A stretch of 36,136 nucleotides of DNA from Candidatus Crickella merdequi (GTDB lineage Bacteria > Bacillota > Clostridia > Peptostreptococcales > Anaerovoracaceae). Of this stretch, positions 31,165 to 35,414 are shown piece after piece (the first letter of the stretch is position 1; every line of letters begins with the position of its first letter). The stretch is from NCBI GenBank assembly GCA_018064645.1, contig JAGHUT010000054.1, positions 1-36,136 on the forward strand, written 5' to 3'. The translations under genes were made by a program, and so were the position numbers. Under the pieces are notes generated by a model, which made no database searches, had not been told where the DNA came from, and saw nothing but the letters and a program-made list of their open reading frames with translations.

Positions 31165-32646
31165 ATGGCAGAGACTTTCAATTACATTATTGAATTTCTA
31201 ACAGTTGGGCACATAGTGAACATCATTTATGTGCTCAATTTAATTATTGCGTTTGTTATTATTTTTGTAGATAAGAAGGACCCTTCGGCAACAATGGCGT
31301 GGATTATGATTCTTTTCATTGTTCCTGTTGTCGGCTTTGTGTTCTATATGGTATTTTCCCAGCATATATCGAGACTTAAGATCGATAAGGTTCCGCCAGA
31401 GGAAATGCGACTAGGCACTTACATGCTCGAGGAGCAGATGAGAGAGCTTAATTCAGTGCACCTTGCCAATTACAGCAAAGTTCTCGATAAATGGAAAGCA
31501 ATGGTAATGCTCAACCTTGACTACAGCGGTTCAATTCTTACTGCTAACGAAAGTGTTGAGATTATTACAGATGGTAAACACAAGTTCCATAAACTCTTTG
31601 ATGATATCAGGAATGCGGAGAAGAGTATCTGCCTCTGCTATTTCATTATCAAAAACGATATTGTAGGAAAGAAACTTATCAGTCTTCTTACAAAAAAAGC
31701 TGCAGAAGGTGTCGAAGTAAGGCTGCTTATGGACGCCATGGGAAGCAAACAGATTACCAGATTCCAGCTTAAAGAATTTGAAGAGGCTGGCGGTAAATAT
31801 GCTTTCTATTTCAAGCCAAGGATAAGACACTTGTTTATCAGATTCAATTATCGCAACCATCGAAAGATAGCTGTAATCGATAACAGAATAGGATATATAG
31901 GAGGGTTTAATGTAGCCAGAGAATATGCAGGCTACAAGAAGAGATTCGGCTACTGGAGAGATACTCATGTAAGAATTATCGGAGATGCGGTCAAGACAAT
32001 GAATTACAGATTCTTTCTTGACTGGCGTTATGCCACAAATGAACAGTTTGATTTCGTAAATGAGGTTCGCAACAATCCATTAAATTTAATTGATGGAGAT
32101 ATTCCGATTCAGGTGGTATCCTGTGGTCCTAACTCTCCAAGAGAAGAAATCAAGCTTGCCATGATGAAGATGATTACTGGTGCCAAAAGCAGAGTCTTTA
32201 TTCAGACACCGTATTTTGTACCGGACAAGGCAATTATGGAGTCTCTTCTTATGGCGGCAAGATCAGGCGTTGAGGTGAATTTGATGATTCCATGCATGCC
32301 GGACCATCCGTTTGTATACAGAACCACATTATATAATGCAGGCGAGTTACTTAAAGAGGGGGCACACGTATATATATATGAGAATGGATTTCTTCATGCC
32401 AAAACACTTAGTGTTGACGGAGAAGTTTGTACTGTTGGTTCAACAAATTTCGATATAAGAAGTTTCAAACTCAACTTCGAGACAAACGCATTTATCTATG
32501 ATAGTGAAGTCTCAAAGAGAATGGAAGCTTTTTTCATTAAGGATCTGGAGAAAAGCAGACCTTATACCCTTGAGGACAGAGCAAATATTTCGACATTAGA
32601 GAAAGCTCTCGAATCTATTTCCAGACTTTTAACAGAAATACTATAG
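31165..32646 (+). CDS. cls: Cardiolipin synthase (phospholipase D superfamily)
   Basis: This 493 aa protein has two N-terminal transmembrane helices (about 13-37 and 43-65) and two HKD motifs: H232-x-K234-x4-D239 in N-H-R-K-I-A-V-I-D, and H411-x-K413-x4-D418 in H-A-K-T-L-S-V-D. This layout is that of bacterial cardiolipin synthases, which condense two phosphatidylglycerol molecules to cardiolipin and glycerol at the membrane. The start ATG follows CAGGAG. It sits ten bases before the MurT-like gene. Since the same run contains plsX and the plsY-gpsA fusion, lipid synthesis genes are grouped. Another PLD-type phosphatidyltransferase activity cannot be excluded. Confidence 0.93.
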   Translation: MAETFNYIIEFLTVGHIVNIIYVLNLIIAFVIIFVDKKDPSATMAWIMILFIVPVVGFVFYMVFSQHISRLKIDKVPPEEMRLGTYMLEEQMRELNSVHLANYSKVLDKWKAMVMLNLDYSGSILTANESVEIITDGKHKFHKLFDDIRNAEKSICLCYFIIKNDIVGKKLISLLTKKAAEGVEVRLLMDAMGSKQITRFQLKEFEEAGGKYAFYFKPRIRHLFIRFNYRNHRKIAVIDNRIGYIGGFNVAREYAGYKKRFGYWRDTHVRIIGDAVKTMNYRFFLDWRYATNEQFDFVNEVRNNPLNLIDGDIPIQVVSCGPNSPREEIKLAMMKMITGAKSRVFIQTPYFVPDKAIMESLLMAARSGVEVNLMIPCMPDHPFVYRTTLYNAGELLKEGAHVYIYENGFLHAKTLSVDGEVCTVGSTNFDIRSFKLNFETNAFIYDSEVSKRMEAFFIKDLEKSRPYTLEDRANISTLEKALESISRLLTEIL

Positions 32647-32656
32647 GAGACAAGAT

Positions 32657-34051
32657 ATGCTTAGATACTACATAGCATTATGGGCTGCCAAATTATCTCT
32701 GGTTGCTCTAAAGATTACAAAGCATAATGGAACTAATTTTCCTGGTATAGTTGCACTGAGGATTTGTCCGGACTTTCTTACCAGAGTTGCTAAGCCGGAG
32801 ACAATTATCGGAGTGACAGGTACTAATGGTAAGACAACTGTAAGTAACCTTATTAAGGATGCTCTTGCTGTTAAAGGCGTTCAGGTGCTTTCTAACAGTC
32901 ATGGAAGCAACATTGCAACAGGTGTTGCCACTTCATTCATGAATGGTGTAAACATATTCGGTAAGTGCAGATATAAGATGGCAGTACTTGAAATCGATGA
33001 AAGATCAGTTACTAAGTTTTTCCCTGCATTTGAACCTGATTACATGATTGTAAATAATCTTACAAGAGATTCAATTATGCGTAATGGACACCCTGAATAT
33101 ATTGCGGGAATTCTTACTAAATATATGCCGGCCAAGACTAAGCTGATTATCAACGGTGACGATCTTATCGCATGCTCTGTATCTCCTGATAATGAGAGAA
33201 AATACTTTGGCATCAGCAGAATGGATACTGATGTCGAAGAGTGCATTAATCTCATTAACGATATGATGATCTGCCCTGAGTGTAATGAGATGCTTAAGTA
33301 CGACTACCTGAGATATCATCACATCGGTAAGGCATATTGTCCTAACTGTGGCTTCAAATCACCTGAGTGTGATTATCTTGGTGTTAATGTTGATACAGAT
33401 GCTATGTCAATCAATGTTGTAGAGAAAGCTGAACCATTAAATGAGACAGTTTCTTACAAGCTGATTAACGACAGTGTGTTTAACATTTACAATGTTGTTG
33501 CGCTTGTGGCTCTACTTAGAGAAATCGGCTACAGTTCTGCCGATGTTAAAGAAATGCTTGAAGGAATCGAGATCGTTAAGACAAGATTCAACGAGAAGCA
33601 GTTCGGAACATACACATTCATCAGACAGATGTCAAAGGAAAAGAATGCGCTGGCATCTTCAAGAGTATTTGACTATGTATCATCAAGACCGGGAGATAAG
33701 GAGCTTGTTCTGATGATGAACTGCCTTGGCGATACTAAGACATGGTCAGAGAATATGTGCTGGCTATACGATTGTGATTTCGAGTTCCTGAATAATGACA
33801 GCATCAGGAACATTGTAGTTACAGGCGAAAGAGCAAAAGATTACTATCTCAGACTTCAGTATGCAGGAGTTCCTGTCGATAGAATAACAATTGTACCTGA
33901 TGAAAAAGATATTCCTTCAGGTCTTAAGCTTTTCCCTTATTCAAATGTATATCTTTTCTATGGAACTGATTCTCTTGAACTGTCATATGTGATTGGAGAG
34001 GCCATTGAAGAAACAATGAAAAAGAAAGTTGCAGAAGGAGGGGACAGATAA
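32657..34051 (+). CDS. murT: MurT-like Mur ligase with zinc ribbon and DUF1727 domain, divergent
   Basis: This 464 aa protein has the MurT architecture. The ATP loop G-V-T-G-T-N-G-K-T-T lies at 52-61, with E-I-D-E near 115, and a four-cysteine zinc ribbon has C206-x2-C209 and C228-x2-C231. A DUF1727 C-terminus ends near 455. MurT activates the alpha-carboxyl of D-Glu in lipid II, and GatD supplies ammonia from glutamine for amidation. Two conserved segments differ from the family as I recall it: the F-R-D-Q-L-D-R-Y-G-E stretch reads T-R-D-S-I-M-R-N-G-H (136-145). The D-x-S-W segment, said to hold the Asp of the shared glutaminase triad, reads N366-M-C-W. Stop and next start overlap (TAATG). 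A paralogue with another acceptor is possible. Confidence 0.8.
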   Translation: MLRYYIALWAAKLSLVALKITKHNGTNFPGIVALRICPDFLTRVAKPETIIGVTGTNGKTTVSNLIKDALAVKGVQVLSNSHGSNIATGVATSFMNGVNIFGKCRYKMAVLEIDERSVTKFFPAFEPDYMIVNNLTRDSIMRNGHPEYIAGILTKYMPAKTKLIINGDDLIACSVSPDNERKYFGISRMDTDVEECINLINDMMICPECNEMLKYDYLRYHHIGKAYCPNCGFKSPECDYLGVNVDTDAMSINVVEKAEPLNETVSYKLINDSVFNIYNVVALVALLREIGYSSADVKEMLEGIEIVKTRFNEKQFGTYTFIRQMSKEKNALASSRVFDYVSSRPGDKELVLMMNCLGDTKTWSENMCWLYDCDFEFLNNDSIRNIVVTGERAKDYYLRLQYAGVPVDRITIVPDEKDIPSGLKLFPYSNVYLFYGTDSLELSYVIGEAIEETMKKKVAEGGDR

Positions 34052-34785
34052 TGAGAATTGAAGTATTATATCCGGAAATCTGCAATTTATATGGAGAGCT
34101 TGGTAATATCAGATGCCTTAAAGAGTCGCTTCCAGATGCTGAGATTATAGAAACCCATATCAAAGATAAGCCTGTTTTTCTCGATGAAGAGGTGAATCTT
34201 GTATATATGGGAACAATGACAGAGCGTGGTCAGGTGATGGTTATCGATGCGCTCAACCCATATAAAGATGTAATTAAAGAAAGAATTCACGAAGGCATGC
34301 CGTTCCTTGTTACAGGAAATGCTTTTGAGGTATTCGGCAAAGAAATAATTGAAGATAATGTTAAAGTTGCTGACGGACTTGGACTTTTTGATTTCGTATC
34401 CAGAAGATCCTCAATACAGAGAGTTAATCATCTGTATGTGGGGGATTTCAGAGTTTCAGAAGAAGAAACGATAAAAGTAGCAGGCTTTAAATCGCTCTTC
34501 GGCTATGCTTACGGCCCTGCTTTTGAGTGTAAACTCTTCGATACTGTTCTTGGATACGGTGCTAACGAAGAGATTAAAGAAGAAGGCATAAGATGTCATA
34601 ATTTCATGGCTACATATCTTACAGGACCACTTCTTATTCTTAATCCGCCGTTCACAAAATGGCTTATGAATGAGCTTATGGGCGCAAAGGATGCTGTTCC
34701 AGCTCATTATGATGCTGCGATGGATGCATATAATTACAGAATTGAAGAATACCTGAGACCTGGTAAGGGCTGGAAATACCATTAA
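34051..34785 (+). CDS. gatD: GatD-like class I glutamine amidotransferase fold lacking catalytic Cys and His
   Basis: This 244 aa protein overlaps the MurT-like gene by one base. It keeps GatD hallmarks: L-Y-P-E-I-C-N-L-Y-G-E-L-G-N-I near the N-terminus, G-L-G-L-F-D-F in the middle and A-T-Y-L-T-G-P-L-L near 190. In functional GatD the nucleophile elbow reads like I-C-G-G-Y-Q-F-L-G; here it is V-T-G-N-A-F-E-V-F-G, with T88-G89-N90 and no cysteine. The catalytic His of Y-L-H-G-P is Thr191. The upstream I-G-G-G-x-D-R-E-Q becomes M-G-T-M-T-E-R-G-Q. The frame is intact, so this is an unbroken pseudoenzyme rather than a pseudogene. It probably acts as a structural partner of the ligase. Confidence 0.78.
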   Translation: MRIEVLYPEICNLYGELGNIRCLKESLPDAEIIETHIKDKPVFLDEEVNLVYMGTMTERGQVMVIDALNPYKDVIKERIHEGMPFLVTGNAFEVFGKEIIEDNVKVADGLGLFDFVSRRSSIQRVNHLYVGDFRVSEEETIKVAGFKSLFGYAYGPAFECKLFDTVLGYGANEEIKEEGIRCHNFMATYLTGPLLILNPPFTKWLMNELMGAKDAVPAHYDAAMDAYNYRIEEYLRPGKGWKYH

Positions 34786-34796
34786 GAGGTATGACA

Positions 34797-35414
34797 ATGA
34801 GTATTATCATAACAAAGCTGATAACCCTTCCTGGAATTATAATTGGATTGTCCCTTCATGAATTTGCTCATGCAAAGGTGTCATCTTTGCTTGGCGATCC
34901 AACTCCTAAGCAGCAGGGCAGAGTTACAATAAGTCCTTTCGCACATATTGATGTTATAGGTTTCATAATGCTTCTGCTGTGCGGCTTCGGTTGGGGTAAA
35001 CCTGTTCAGATTAACCCGGCATATTATAAGCACAGAAGAAGGGATGAATTCCTTGTATCTATAGCTGGAGTCATTATGAACTTCATTCTTGCTATTCTGT
35101 TCGCATTTCCAACAATGTGGGCTTTCAGAGCAAGTATGACATCATCATTAATGGAAATTGTATTTGAGGTTTTATTTGCTGTAGTTCAGATTAATCTTTG
35201 TCTTATGCTTTTTAACCTAATTCCGGTTCCGCCACTTGATGGTTTCGGCATTGTAACACAGCTGTTCAATCTTCAGAAGTACAGCTGGTACTACAGAATA
35301 TACCAGTACGGCTCAATCATACTTCTGATACTGATTGTTTCAAATGCCACAAGTCTTATTCTGACACCGGCAATGCAGTGGCTGCTTAATATAATATTTA
35401 CAATCGTATCATAA
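34797..35414 (+). CDS. Site-2 protease family (M50) membrane metalloprotease
   Basis: The protein is 205 aa from ATG 34797, which lies seven bases after GAGG (34786-34789); ATG 34791 lies only one base after and is less likely. The zinc-binding H21-E22-F-A-H25 is in the first membrane segment. The third ligand, Asp148, is in V-P-P-L-D-G-F, the usual N-P-x-P-x-x-D-G-type site. About five to six membrane segments are present and there is no PDZ domain, as in the compact YwhC-like group. Site-2 proteases cleave membrane-embedded substrates. The substrate is unknown. It is the last gene of the run and is followed by a strong terminator. Confidence 0.88.
   Translation: MSIIITKLITLPGIIIGLSLHEFAHAKVSSLLGDPTPKQQGRVTISPFAHIDVIGFIMLLLCGFGWGKPVQINPAYYKHRRRDEFLVSIAGVIMNFILAILFAFPTMWAFRASMTSSLMEIVFEVLFAVVQINLCLMLFNLIPVPPLDGFGIVTQLFNLQKYSWYYRIYQYGSIILLILIVSNATSLILTPAMQWLLNIIFTIVS

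Follow-up and report, generated by a model that had tools for sequence, protein, structure and literature searches.

In the 36,136-nucleotide stretch of DNA analysed here (contig JAGHUT010000054.1 of Candidatus Crickella merdequi, assembly GCA_018064645.1; hereafter the window), two overlapping genes encode homologues of MurT and GatD, the subunits of lipid II isoglutaminyl synthase, and the second of them, which we call gatD* (34051..34785, + strand), encodes a GatD homologue of 244 amino acids without the catalytic Cys and His. At the sequence level we show that the glutaminase site has been lost in both subunits, that the ligase-site residues of MurT have been kept, and that this state is conserved across a clade. 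Sequence, predicted structure, phylogeny, purifying selection and the loss of the triad Asp of MurT together support the view that GatD* is a glutaminase-dead subunit maintained by selection. What this enzyme pair of gut and mouth Clostridia joins to a cell-wall building block is probably not ammonia derived from glutamine. For the window complex itself we propose, with moderate confidence, that GatD* no longer hydrolyses glutamine and that MurT would still be an ATP (adenosine triphosphate)-dependent carboxylate-amine ligase, joining a non-glutamine amine to the precursor.

The gatD* frame is uninterrupted from its ATG to the stop codon, as an earlier preliminary description of this DNA had stated. 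Its product matches the Pfam family GATase_3 with 39.4 bits (cut-off 27), and it also matches solved GatD structures from S. aureus, S. pneumoniae and S. pyogenes, with E values from 8e-21 to 1e-11. The partner gene (32657..34051, + strand) encodes a MurT of 464 amino acids, assigned by Pfam and chain alignments, with a Mur ligase middle domain bearing a Zn ribbon (Mur_ligase_M, PF08245, 33.3 bits, cut-off 24) and a MurT_C domain (PF08353, 86.2 bits, cut-off 25). Both subunits stay well short of the NCBIfam equivalog cut-offs: GatD* scores 80.1 bits against 450 for NF052463 and 63.7 against 400 for NF045636, and MurT scores 199.8 and 160.5 bits for NF052464 and NF045635, where 800 bits are demanded by each. 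On these matches the window protein is a GatD by its GATase_3 fold and homology, yet one without the defining glutaminase residues.

Alignment with S. aureus GatD placed T92-I93-C94-G95-G96-Y97-Q98 opposite V87-T88-G89-N90-A91-F92-E93 of GatD*, so that Cys94 is replaced by G89, the oxyanion Gly95 by N90 and Gln98 by E93, and His189 is replaced by T191. The codons concerned are 88-93 (T-G-N-A-F-E replacing I-C-G-G-Y-Q; 34312..34329) and 191 (34621..34623), both on the + strand. The absence of the Cys and the change of the catalytic His to Thr191 had been described before; the elbow had then been set against T88-G89-N90 as a whole, and the residue opposite Cys94 is G89 itself. The oxyanion-strand segment G-G-G, previously taken as lost, is lost in part: the strand reads G54-T55-M56, in which the first Gly is retained and Gly60-Gly61 are replaced by T55-M56. 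Codons 54-58 of this strand (34210..34224, + strand) read G-T-M-T-E in place of G-G-G-S-D, with E58 opposite Asp63. For the roles of these residues and of MurT Asp349 (in S. pneumoniae Asp355) we rely on passages of PMC5871853, PMC6113224, PMC3266927 and PMC6085368. Passages of the same literature report mutants inactive with glutamine, namely C94G (PMC3266927), C94S (PMC6113224) and C94A, H189A and R128A (PMC5871853). The fold of GatD* was intact in the structure prediction.

To describe the relatives we distinguished three states of GatD: canonical (with Cys and His), class 2 (window-like) and class 3 (a second type without Cys and His). The 163 distinct sequences comprised 30 canonical ones, which came from other searches, 119 of class 2 and 14 of class 3, in a set enriched for class 2 by the design of the search. 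Since class 2 is defined by the absent Cys/His pair, the count of 0 in 119 with the pair is partly given by definition. As an independent test, named genomes were searched for a motif that overlaps neither site; this gave 80 loci, all with a readable GatD, and none of their 82 GatDs carries Cys94 or His189. Relatives carry the same substitutions, and because the substitutions recur across relatives chance is excluded.

The old catalytic pocket is nearly uniform within class 2. Of the 119 sequences, 118 have Thr at position 93 and 117 have Asn at position 95; position 98 is Glu or Asp in all 119, and position 63 is Glu in all 119 (Asp in 29 of 30 canonical sequences). The column of the glutamine-capturing Arg128 is a gap in GatD*, with Arg in 30/30 canonical and 4/119 class-2 sequences. 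Judged by these new near-invariant pocket residues, the lost glutaminase site is not drifting. Selection on the whole protein, which had been suspected before, was borne out by the ratio of non-synonymous to synonymous changes (dN/dS, NG86) in the two pairs of relatives with usable dS, 0.020/0.332 (about 0.06) and 0.099/0.712 (about 0.14); the comparison of gatD* with the relative nearest to it (86% identity) gives a dN of 0.084 and a dS of 2.4, which is saturated. The full length is conserved in more than 100 relatives.

The MurT partners were examined in 115 distinct sequences paired with a read GatD. K59, N85, E110, D112, E113, D136, R304 and K321 are near-invariant in every class. The residues for ATP and the acceptor carboxylate, K59, N85, E110, D112 and E113, are present in the window MurT and in 73 or 74 of 74 class-2A sequences each, and the P-loop GTNGKTT (residues 55-61; 32819..32839, + strand) is intact by alignment and family counts. 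The residues that serve the glutaminase have changed. Asp355 occurs in 9/9 canonical partners, 2/75 of class 2A, 0/17 of class 2B, 1/1 of an L044-like type and 0/13 of class 3, so that it is missing in 103 of 106 non-canonical partners; in the window Asn366 (33752..33754, + strand) replaces it by alignment. Of the channel-loop residues, D139 is found in 9/9 canonical and 0/106 other partners, and E143 in 8/9 canonical, 2/13 class-3 and 0/93 other partners. The gate loop reads RDQ(L/M)DR(Y/F)GE in canonical MurTs, RDS..RN(A/G)HPE in most of class 2A, KDSLRRNGHPE in class 2B and KDQVQRNG(D/E)PD in class 3; in the window it is RDSIMRNGHPEY (residues 137-148; 33065..33100, + strand, by alignment). 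Both the gate loops and the segment around D355 are class-specific and conserved within each class. According to passages of PMC6113224, S. aureus MurT-D349N has severely reduced activity in the text and completely abolished activity in a figure legend, and a passage of PMC6085368 describes the Asp-to-Ala change in S. pneumoniae MurT as reducing activity without killing it.

A careful tree of 43 chosen MurT rows placed the 32 non-canonical ones on one side of a branch (support 99/95), and a quick tree of 83 rows likewise placed 72 non-canonical ones on one side (SH-aLRT, the Shimodaira-Hasegawa-like approximate likelihood ratio test, 96). On these trees the residue changes in MurT and GatD are a coherent co-change and not the product of repeated independent evolution. 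Since a single branch of the MurT tree essentially accounts for the division into classes, the residue correlations count largely as one event rather than as many.

The window genome (1.6 Mb in 103 contigs, 92% complete) holds one further murT/gatD pair, pair B on contig C12. The existence of a second, catalytic pair had been raised as a possibility; the GatD of pair B reads TGNSVEIFG and YSLGP and likewise has no Cys or His at the catalytic sites, and a MurT_C search found no third MurT in this assembly, of which 8% may be missing. Both detected pairs are therefore without Cys and His, which supports the proposed loss of glutamine use. Of 148 sampled genomes from the same family, 52 had a GatD match; by residues, one locus (L061) being reassigned manually when they were read, 10 of these genomes are canonical, 28 class 2 and 14 class 3, and 42 of the 52 have only GatDs without Cys and His among the matches listed. 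A MurT_C search of 29 sample genomes, and of six named ones that coincide with six of these, found every MurT over the cut-off to lie in a pair without Cys and His. Among 24 further class-2 genomes, in which 16 regions with additional pairs were read, one (G177) carries a canonical pair (L160) alongside a class-2 pair (L132), and therefore the two types are not strictly exclusive. The loci of the motif scan include Mogibacterium timidum, Baileyella intestinalis, Mobilibacterium timonense, Alterileibacterium massiliense and [Eubacterium] infirmum, and also metagenome-assembled genomes labelled Lachnospiraceae, Oscillospiraceae, Erysipelotrichaceae and others; Mogibacterium is labelled Anaerovoracaceae in the tree. 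In a sample of 398 genomes of the phylum, 133 had a match, those above 300 bits were confined to the two genomes of the window's family, and the next best scored 121 bits; 29 of the loci were read, of which 27 are canonical and two lack Cys and His (L206, which is G004 again, and L210, L044-like).

Several variants were seen in the course of these searches. L044, L161, L162, L166, L172, L197 and L210 form a further subgroup without Cys and His, with a TGN elbow and GSGTE, GAGTE, GPGTE or GCGTE in the oxyanion strand; in most of them a His stands two positions ahead of the former catalytic one, and in several genomes they are the second pair. L208 and L209 (G722, G626) have the catalytic Cys and His, with a GAG oxyanion strand and His replacing Arg128. 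Natural MurT/GatD fusions were found among the class-2 relatives, and the same family search also gave a canonical, Cys/His-bearing MurT-GatD fusion (L189:1390-3540); therefore fusion arose in both types. For the fusions an alignment of four natural ones (A4) was properly aligned and was used; one of a single fusion with many single-subunit rows (A2) was discarded because rows of GatD and of MurT fell into the same columns, a sign of probable misalignment. A complex model had been suggested for the window pair; the complex that was modelled is one natural fusion from a relative, with a predicted template modelling score (pTM) of 0.85.

The genes murT and gatD* overlap by one base, the TAA stop of murT (34049-34051) sharing its last base with the gatD* ATG, which agrees with the translational overlap described before, and a ribosome-binding-site-like AGGAGG, read directly at 34036..34041 (+ strand), ends 9 bases before that ATG. 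The order of genes, all in one direction, is miaB (named from the sequence without a family search), a cardiolipin-synthase-like gene for a phospholipase D protein (31165..32646, + strand), murT, gatD* and an M50 peptidase gene (34791..35414, + strand); the cardiolipin-synthase-like and M50 genes are syntenic neighbours for which we claim no role in the system.

When the neighbours were clustered over loci of at least 5 kb, one family, with 41 proteins from 40 loci, proved to occur at class-2 loci only. Three members tested, including the gene beside pair B on C12, are ATP-grasp proteins of PF14397 (ATPgrasp_ST), with 149.2 bits for the gene on C12 and 113.5 and 115.6 bits for the others (cut-off 31.4). 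The family directly adjoins MurT or GatD, upstream or downstream, in 35 of 84 class-2, 0 of 8 canonical and 0 of 11 class-3 loci of this size. In whole genomes PF14397 exceeded the cut-off in 24/28 class-2, 3/14 class-3, 1/10 canonical and 0/8 chosen no-hit genomes, and by comparison of listed positions it adjoins a pair in 22/28 class-2, 0/14 class-3 and 0/10 canonical genomes. Two loci (L127 and L133) have the order murT-gatD-ATPgrasp-murT-gatD, and because of this tandem order we suggest that the two pairs and the ATP-grasp protein may work together. A quick, midpoint-rooted tree compared the 41 operon copies with 29 stretches taken from 20 further PF14397 regions. Every operon copy falls within one group of 47 rows (SH-aLRT 89), and the operon label requires 6 changes, where shuffled labels require 22.5; the group's remaining six rows are also from class-2 genomes, from which most of the 20 regions were drawn, and one row is a long branch. 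At two other loci (L235 and L236; G042:C4 and G115:C3) several PF14397 genes stand in a row outside murT/gatD, perhaps in surface polysaccharide loci.

Other wall genes also lie beside such pairs. A MurJ-like family adjoins them in 8 loci (6 of class 2, 2 of class 3), and the one member tested, at L062, matches MurJ and Polysacc_synt. MurE lies beside the class-3 pair in 4 of 14 genomes, co-directional in G014 and G030 and divergent in G078 and G133. Such surroundings speak, by association only, for an action of the pairs on wall precursors that are linked to lipid.

The DNPR/DDPR motif of MurE was tried as a marker of stem-peptide chemistry and rejected, as it gave no separation of the classes: it is present in 6/25 class-2, 3/14 class-3, 3/10 canonical (G114 being unreadable) and 5/8 no-hit genomes, and no MurE at E<=1e-40 was found in the class-2 genomes G019, G036 and G111. 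The MurE loci L255-L323 vary unusually at the DNPR position, and several genomes have two MurE-like genes. The MurEs adjoining class-3 pairs (L061/L308 in G014:C2, L066/L320 in G030:C91, L065/L288 in G078:C27 and L067/L298 in G133:C40) read SPRTDDP or CPKTDDP, not DNPR, and the window genome has one MurE-like gene without DNPR (EEDCGEED).

How such a pair could work is indicated by S. aureus. As reported in passages of PMC3266927, MurT alone is inactive with any donor tried, and the complex of MurT with GatD-C94G is inactive with glutamine, amidates lipid II with unaffected NH3-dependent activity at pH 8.5, and shows none with NH3 at pH 7.5. These data imply that a natural Cys-to-Gly GatD can in principle be the obligate structural half of a working ligase, and GatD* would be such a half, as S. 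aureus MurT is reported to be inactive without GatD. We propose that MurT would phosphorylate a carboxylate, most likely the alpha-carboxyl of D-Glu, on a peptidoglycan precursor linked to lipid, and would join the activated carboxylate to an amine not from glutamine. More speculatively, this amine might not be ammonia but an amino compound, which the re-specified region of GatD* and the gate would hold; the associated ATP-grasp ligase and pair B might then extend or complete the product to give a substituted stem peptide. We lean to the amino compound, which is favoured and not proved, because the pocket and gate have been re-specified and are not alike in the A and B paralogues, because paralogues stand in tandem at some loci, and because an ATP-grasp gene is associated with the pair. 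In its full form the proposal is a tentative one: class-2 pairs A and B with the ATP-grasp protein may constitute a pathway, so far unrecognised, by which the D-Glu alpha-carboxyl of lipid-linked peptidoglycan precursors would receive an amino-acid substituent or bridge, with the old pocket and gate binding the incoming amino compound.

Several observations weigh against our proposal. Only 35 of the 84 class-2 loci have the ATP-grasp gene directly beside the pair, and in the window genome it lies beside pair B and not beside the window pair; 4 of the 28 class-2 genomes have no PF14397 over the cut-off, two more have it away from the pair, and several of these genomes carry PF14397 genes elsewhere as well. 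The ATP-grasp group has an SH-aLRT support of only 89. Class 3, which also lacks Cys and His, has no adjacent ATP-grasp gene, the MurE motif does not follow the classes, and the residue correlations reduce, as said above, to little more than one event. Free ammonia, finally, is a simpler amine, with a precedent in S. aureus.

Free ammonia as the amine is a serious rival, to which we give a real but minority chance: the pair would make ordinary D-isoglutamine from free NH3, with GatD* as a scaffold and perhaps an NH3 conduit. Free NH3 is plentiful around amino-acid fermenters in the rumen, the gut and plaque. The ligase residues of MurT are intact, and the C94G complex, with the very Cys-to-Gly change of the window, keeps its NH3-dependent activity at pH 8.5 while GatD is still needed; however, the same complex has no such activity at pH 7.5 (both from passages of PMC3266927). 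Free ammonia also leaves unexplained the near-invariant pocket residues, the gate-loop differences between paralogues A and B, the tandem pairs at some loci and the ATP-grasp association.

Rather unlikely, in our judgement, is a regulatory or purely structural pseudoenzyme, in which GatD* would sense a ligand such as glutamine or an amino acid and gate MurT without delivering an amine. A pocket that is conserved yet non-catalytic, a fold predicted intact and the requirement of S. aureus MurT for GatD (passages of PMC3266927) would suit it, but the ligand is only hypothetical, and it would not account for the ATP-grasp association or for the fact that the gate loop and the Asp355 segment of MurT have been remodelled in parallel. 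Glutaminase activity retained through relocated catalytic residues is very improbable. A His two residues before position 189 is found in 6 of the 119 class-2 GatDs and a Cys near the elbow in 2, but no alignment column of these 119 has Cys in more than 46% or His in more than 33%, in agreement with the earlier remark that no other cysteine of the window protein stands in an elbow context; in addition, class 2 has lost Gly60 and mostly Arg128, and Asp355 is gone from nearly all the non-canonical MurTs. That gatD* is a decaying pseudogene, as the missing catalytic residues alone might suggest, is scarcely credible for an intact frame with a ribosome-binding-site-like sequence and a gene overlap, with dN/dS far below 1 in both measurable pairs of relatives and with full-length conservation in so many others.

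Our proposal of a ligase that has left glutamine can be set beside the systems already described. The window pair resembles the MurT/GatD lipid II isoglutaminyl synthases (6gs2/6h5e of S. aureus, 6fqb of S. pneumoniae, 9sq9 of S. pyogenes) in the sequence and predicted fold of both subunits and in gene order, and shares with them the ATP and carboxylate residues of MurT and, in nearly all members counted, the CxxC..CxxC Zn ribbon. It differs in having no triad of Cys, His and MurT Asp, no oxyanion Gly60 and no glutamine-capturing Arg, in the replacement of D139 and E143 in the channel loop, in far lower equivalog scores, and in the ATP-grasp association of class 2. GatD* has the same Cys-to-Gly change as the laboratory mutant GatD-C94G of S. 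aureus, but its change is natural and clade-wide, and the His, the MurT Asp and the gate loop are altered as well. The class-3 homologues (L046, L055, L058, L060 and others) also lack Cys94 and His189 and retain the MurT ligase residues, and the flanks of L055 and L058 are like those of the window pair, with a cardiolipin synthase or MiaB upstream and an M50 peptidase downstream; class 3 differs in its pocket (TGT or VGTT, TNxLGP, LHGER), in its gate loop (RNGDPD), in having no adjacent ATP-grasp gene and in the MurE beside some of its pairs. The PF14397 proteins are sugar-transfer-associated ATP-grasp proteins; the operon partners tested exceed the cut-off of that family, and those copies that adjoin class-2 pairs form a common group in its tree.

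No description of a GatD that is inactive or without Cys and His was found in the literature as represented by titles and the openings of abstracts, and no mention of one is made in the available passages on two published trees, that of MurT/GatD in PMC11915815 and that of MurT in PMC12786226. At the level of literature listings, no paper was found on PF14397 and nothing usable on the wall types of Mogibacterium and its relatives. The literature, so far as its excerpts go, treats GatD as a glutaminase, and reports MurT/GatD as essential in several studied Gram-positive bacteria and as a drug target being pursued. Naming by homology alone could assign to genes like these a reaction that they cannot run with glutamine. 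For the bacteria that carry them, either free ammonia can replace glutamine in the amidation of the wall, or MurT has turned to another amine, with a stem peptide that has not been described. If the wider proposal of an amino-acid substituent is true, MurT would be a general stem-peptide aminoacyl ligase and not only an amidase.

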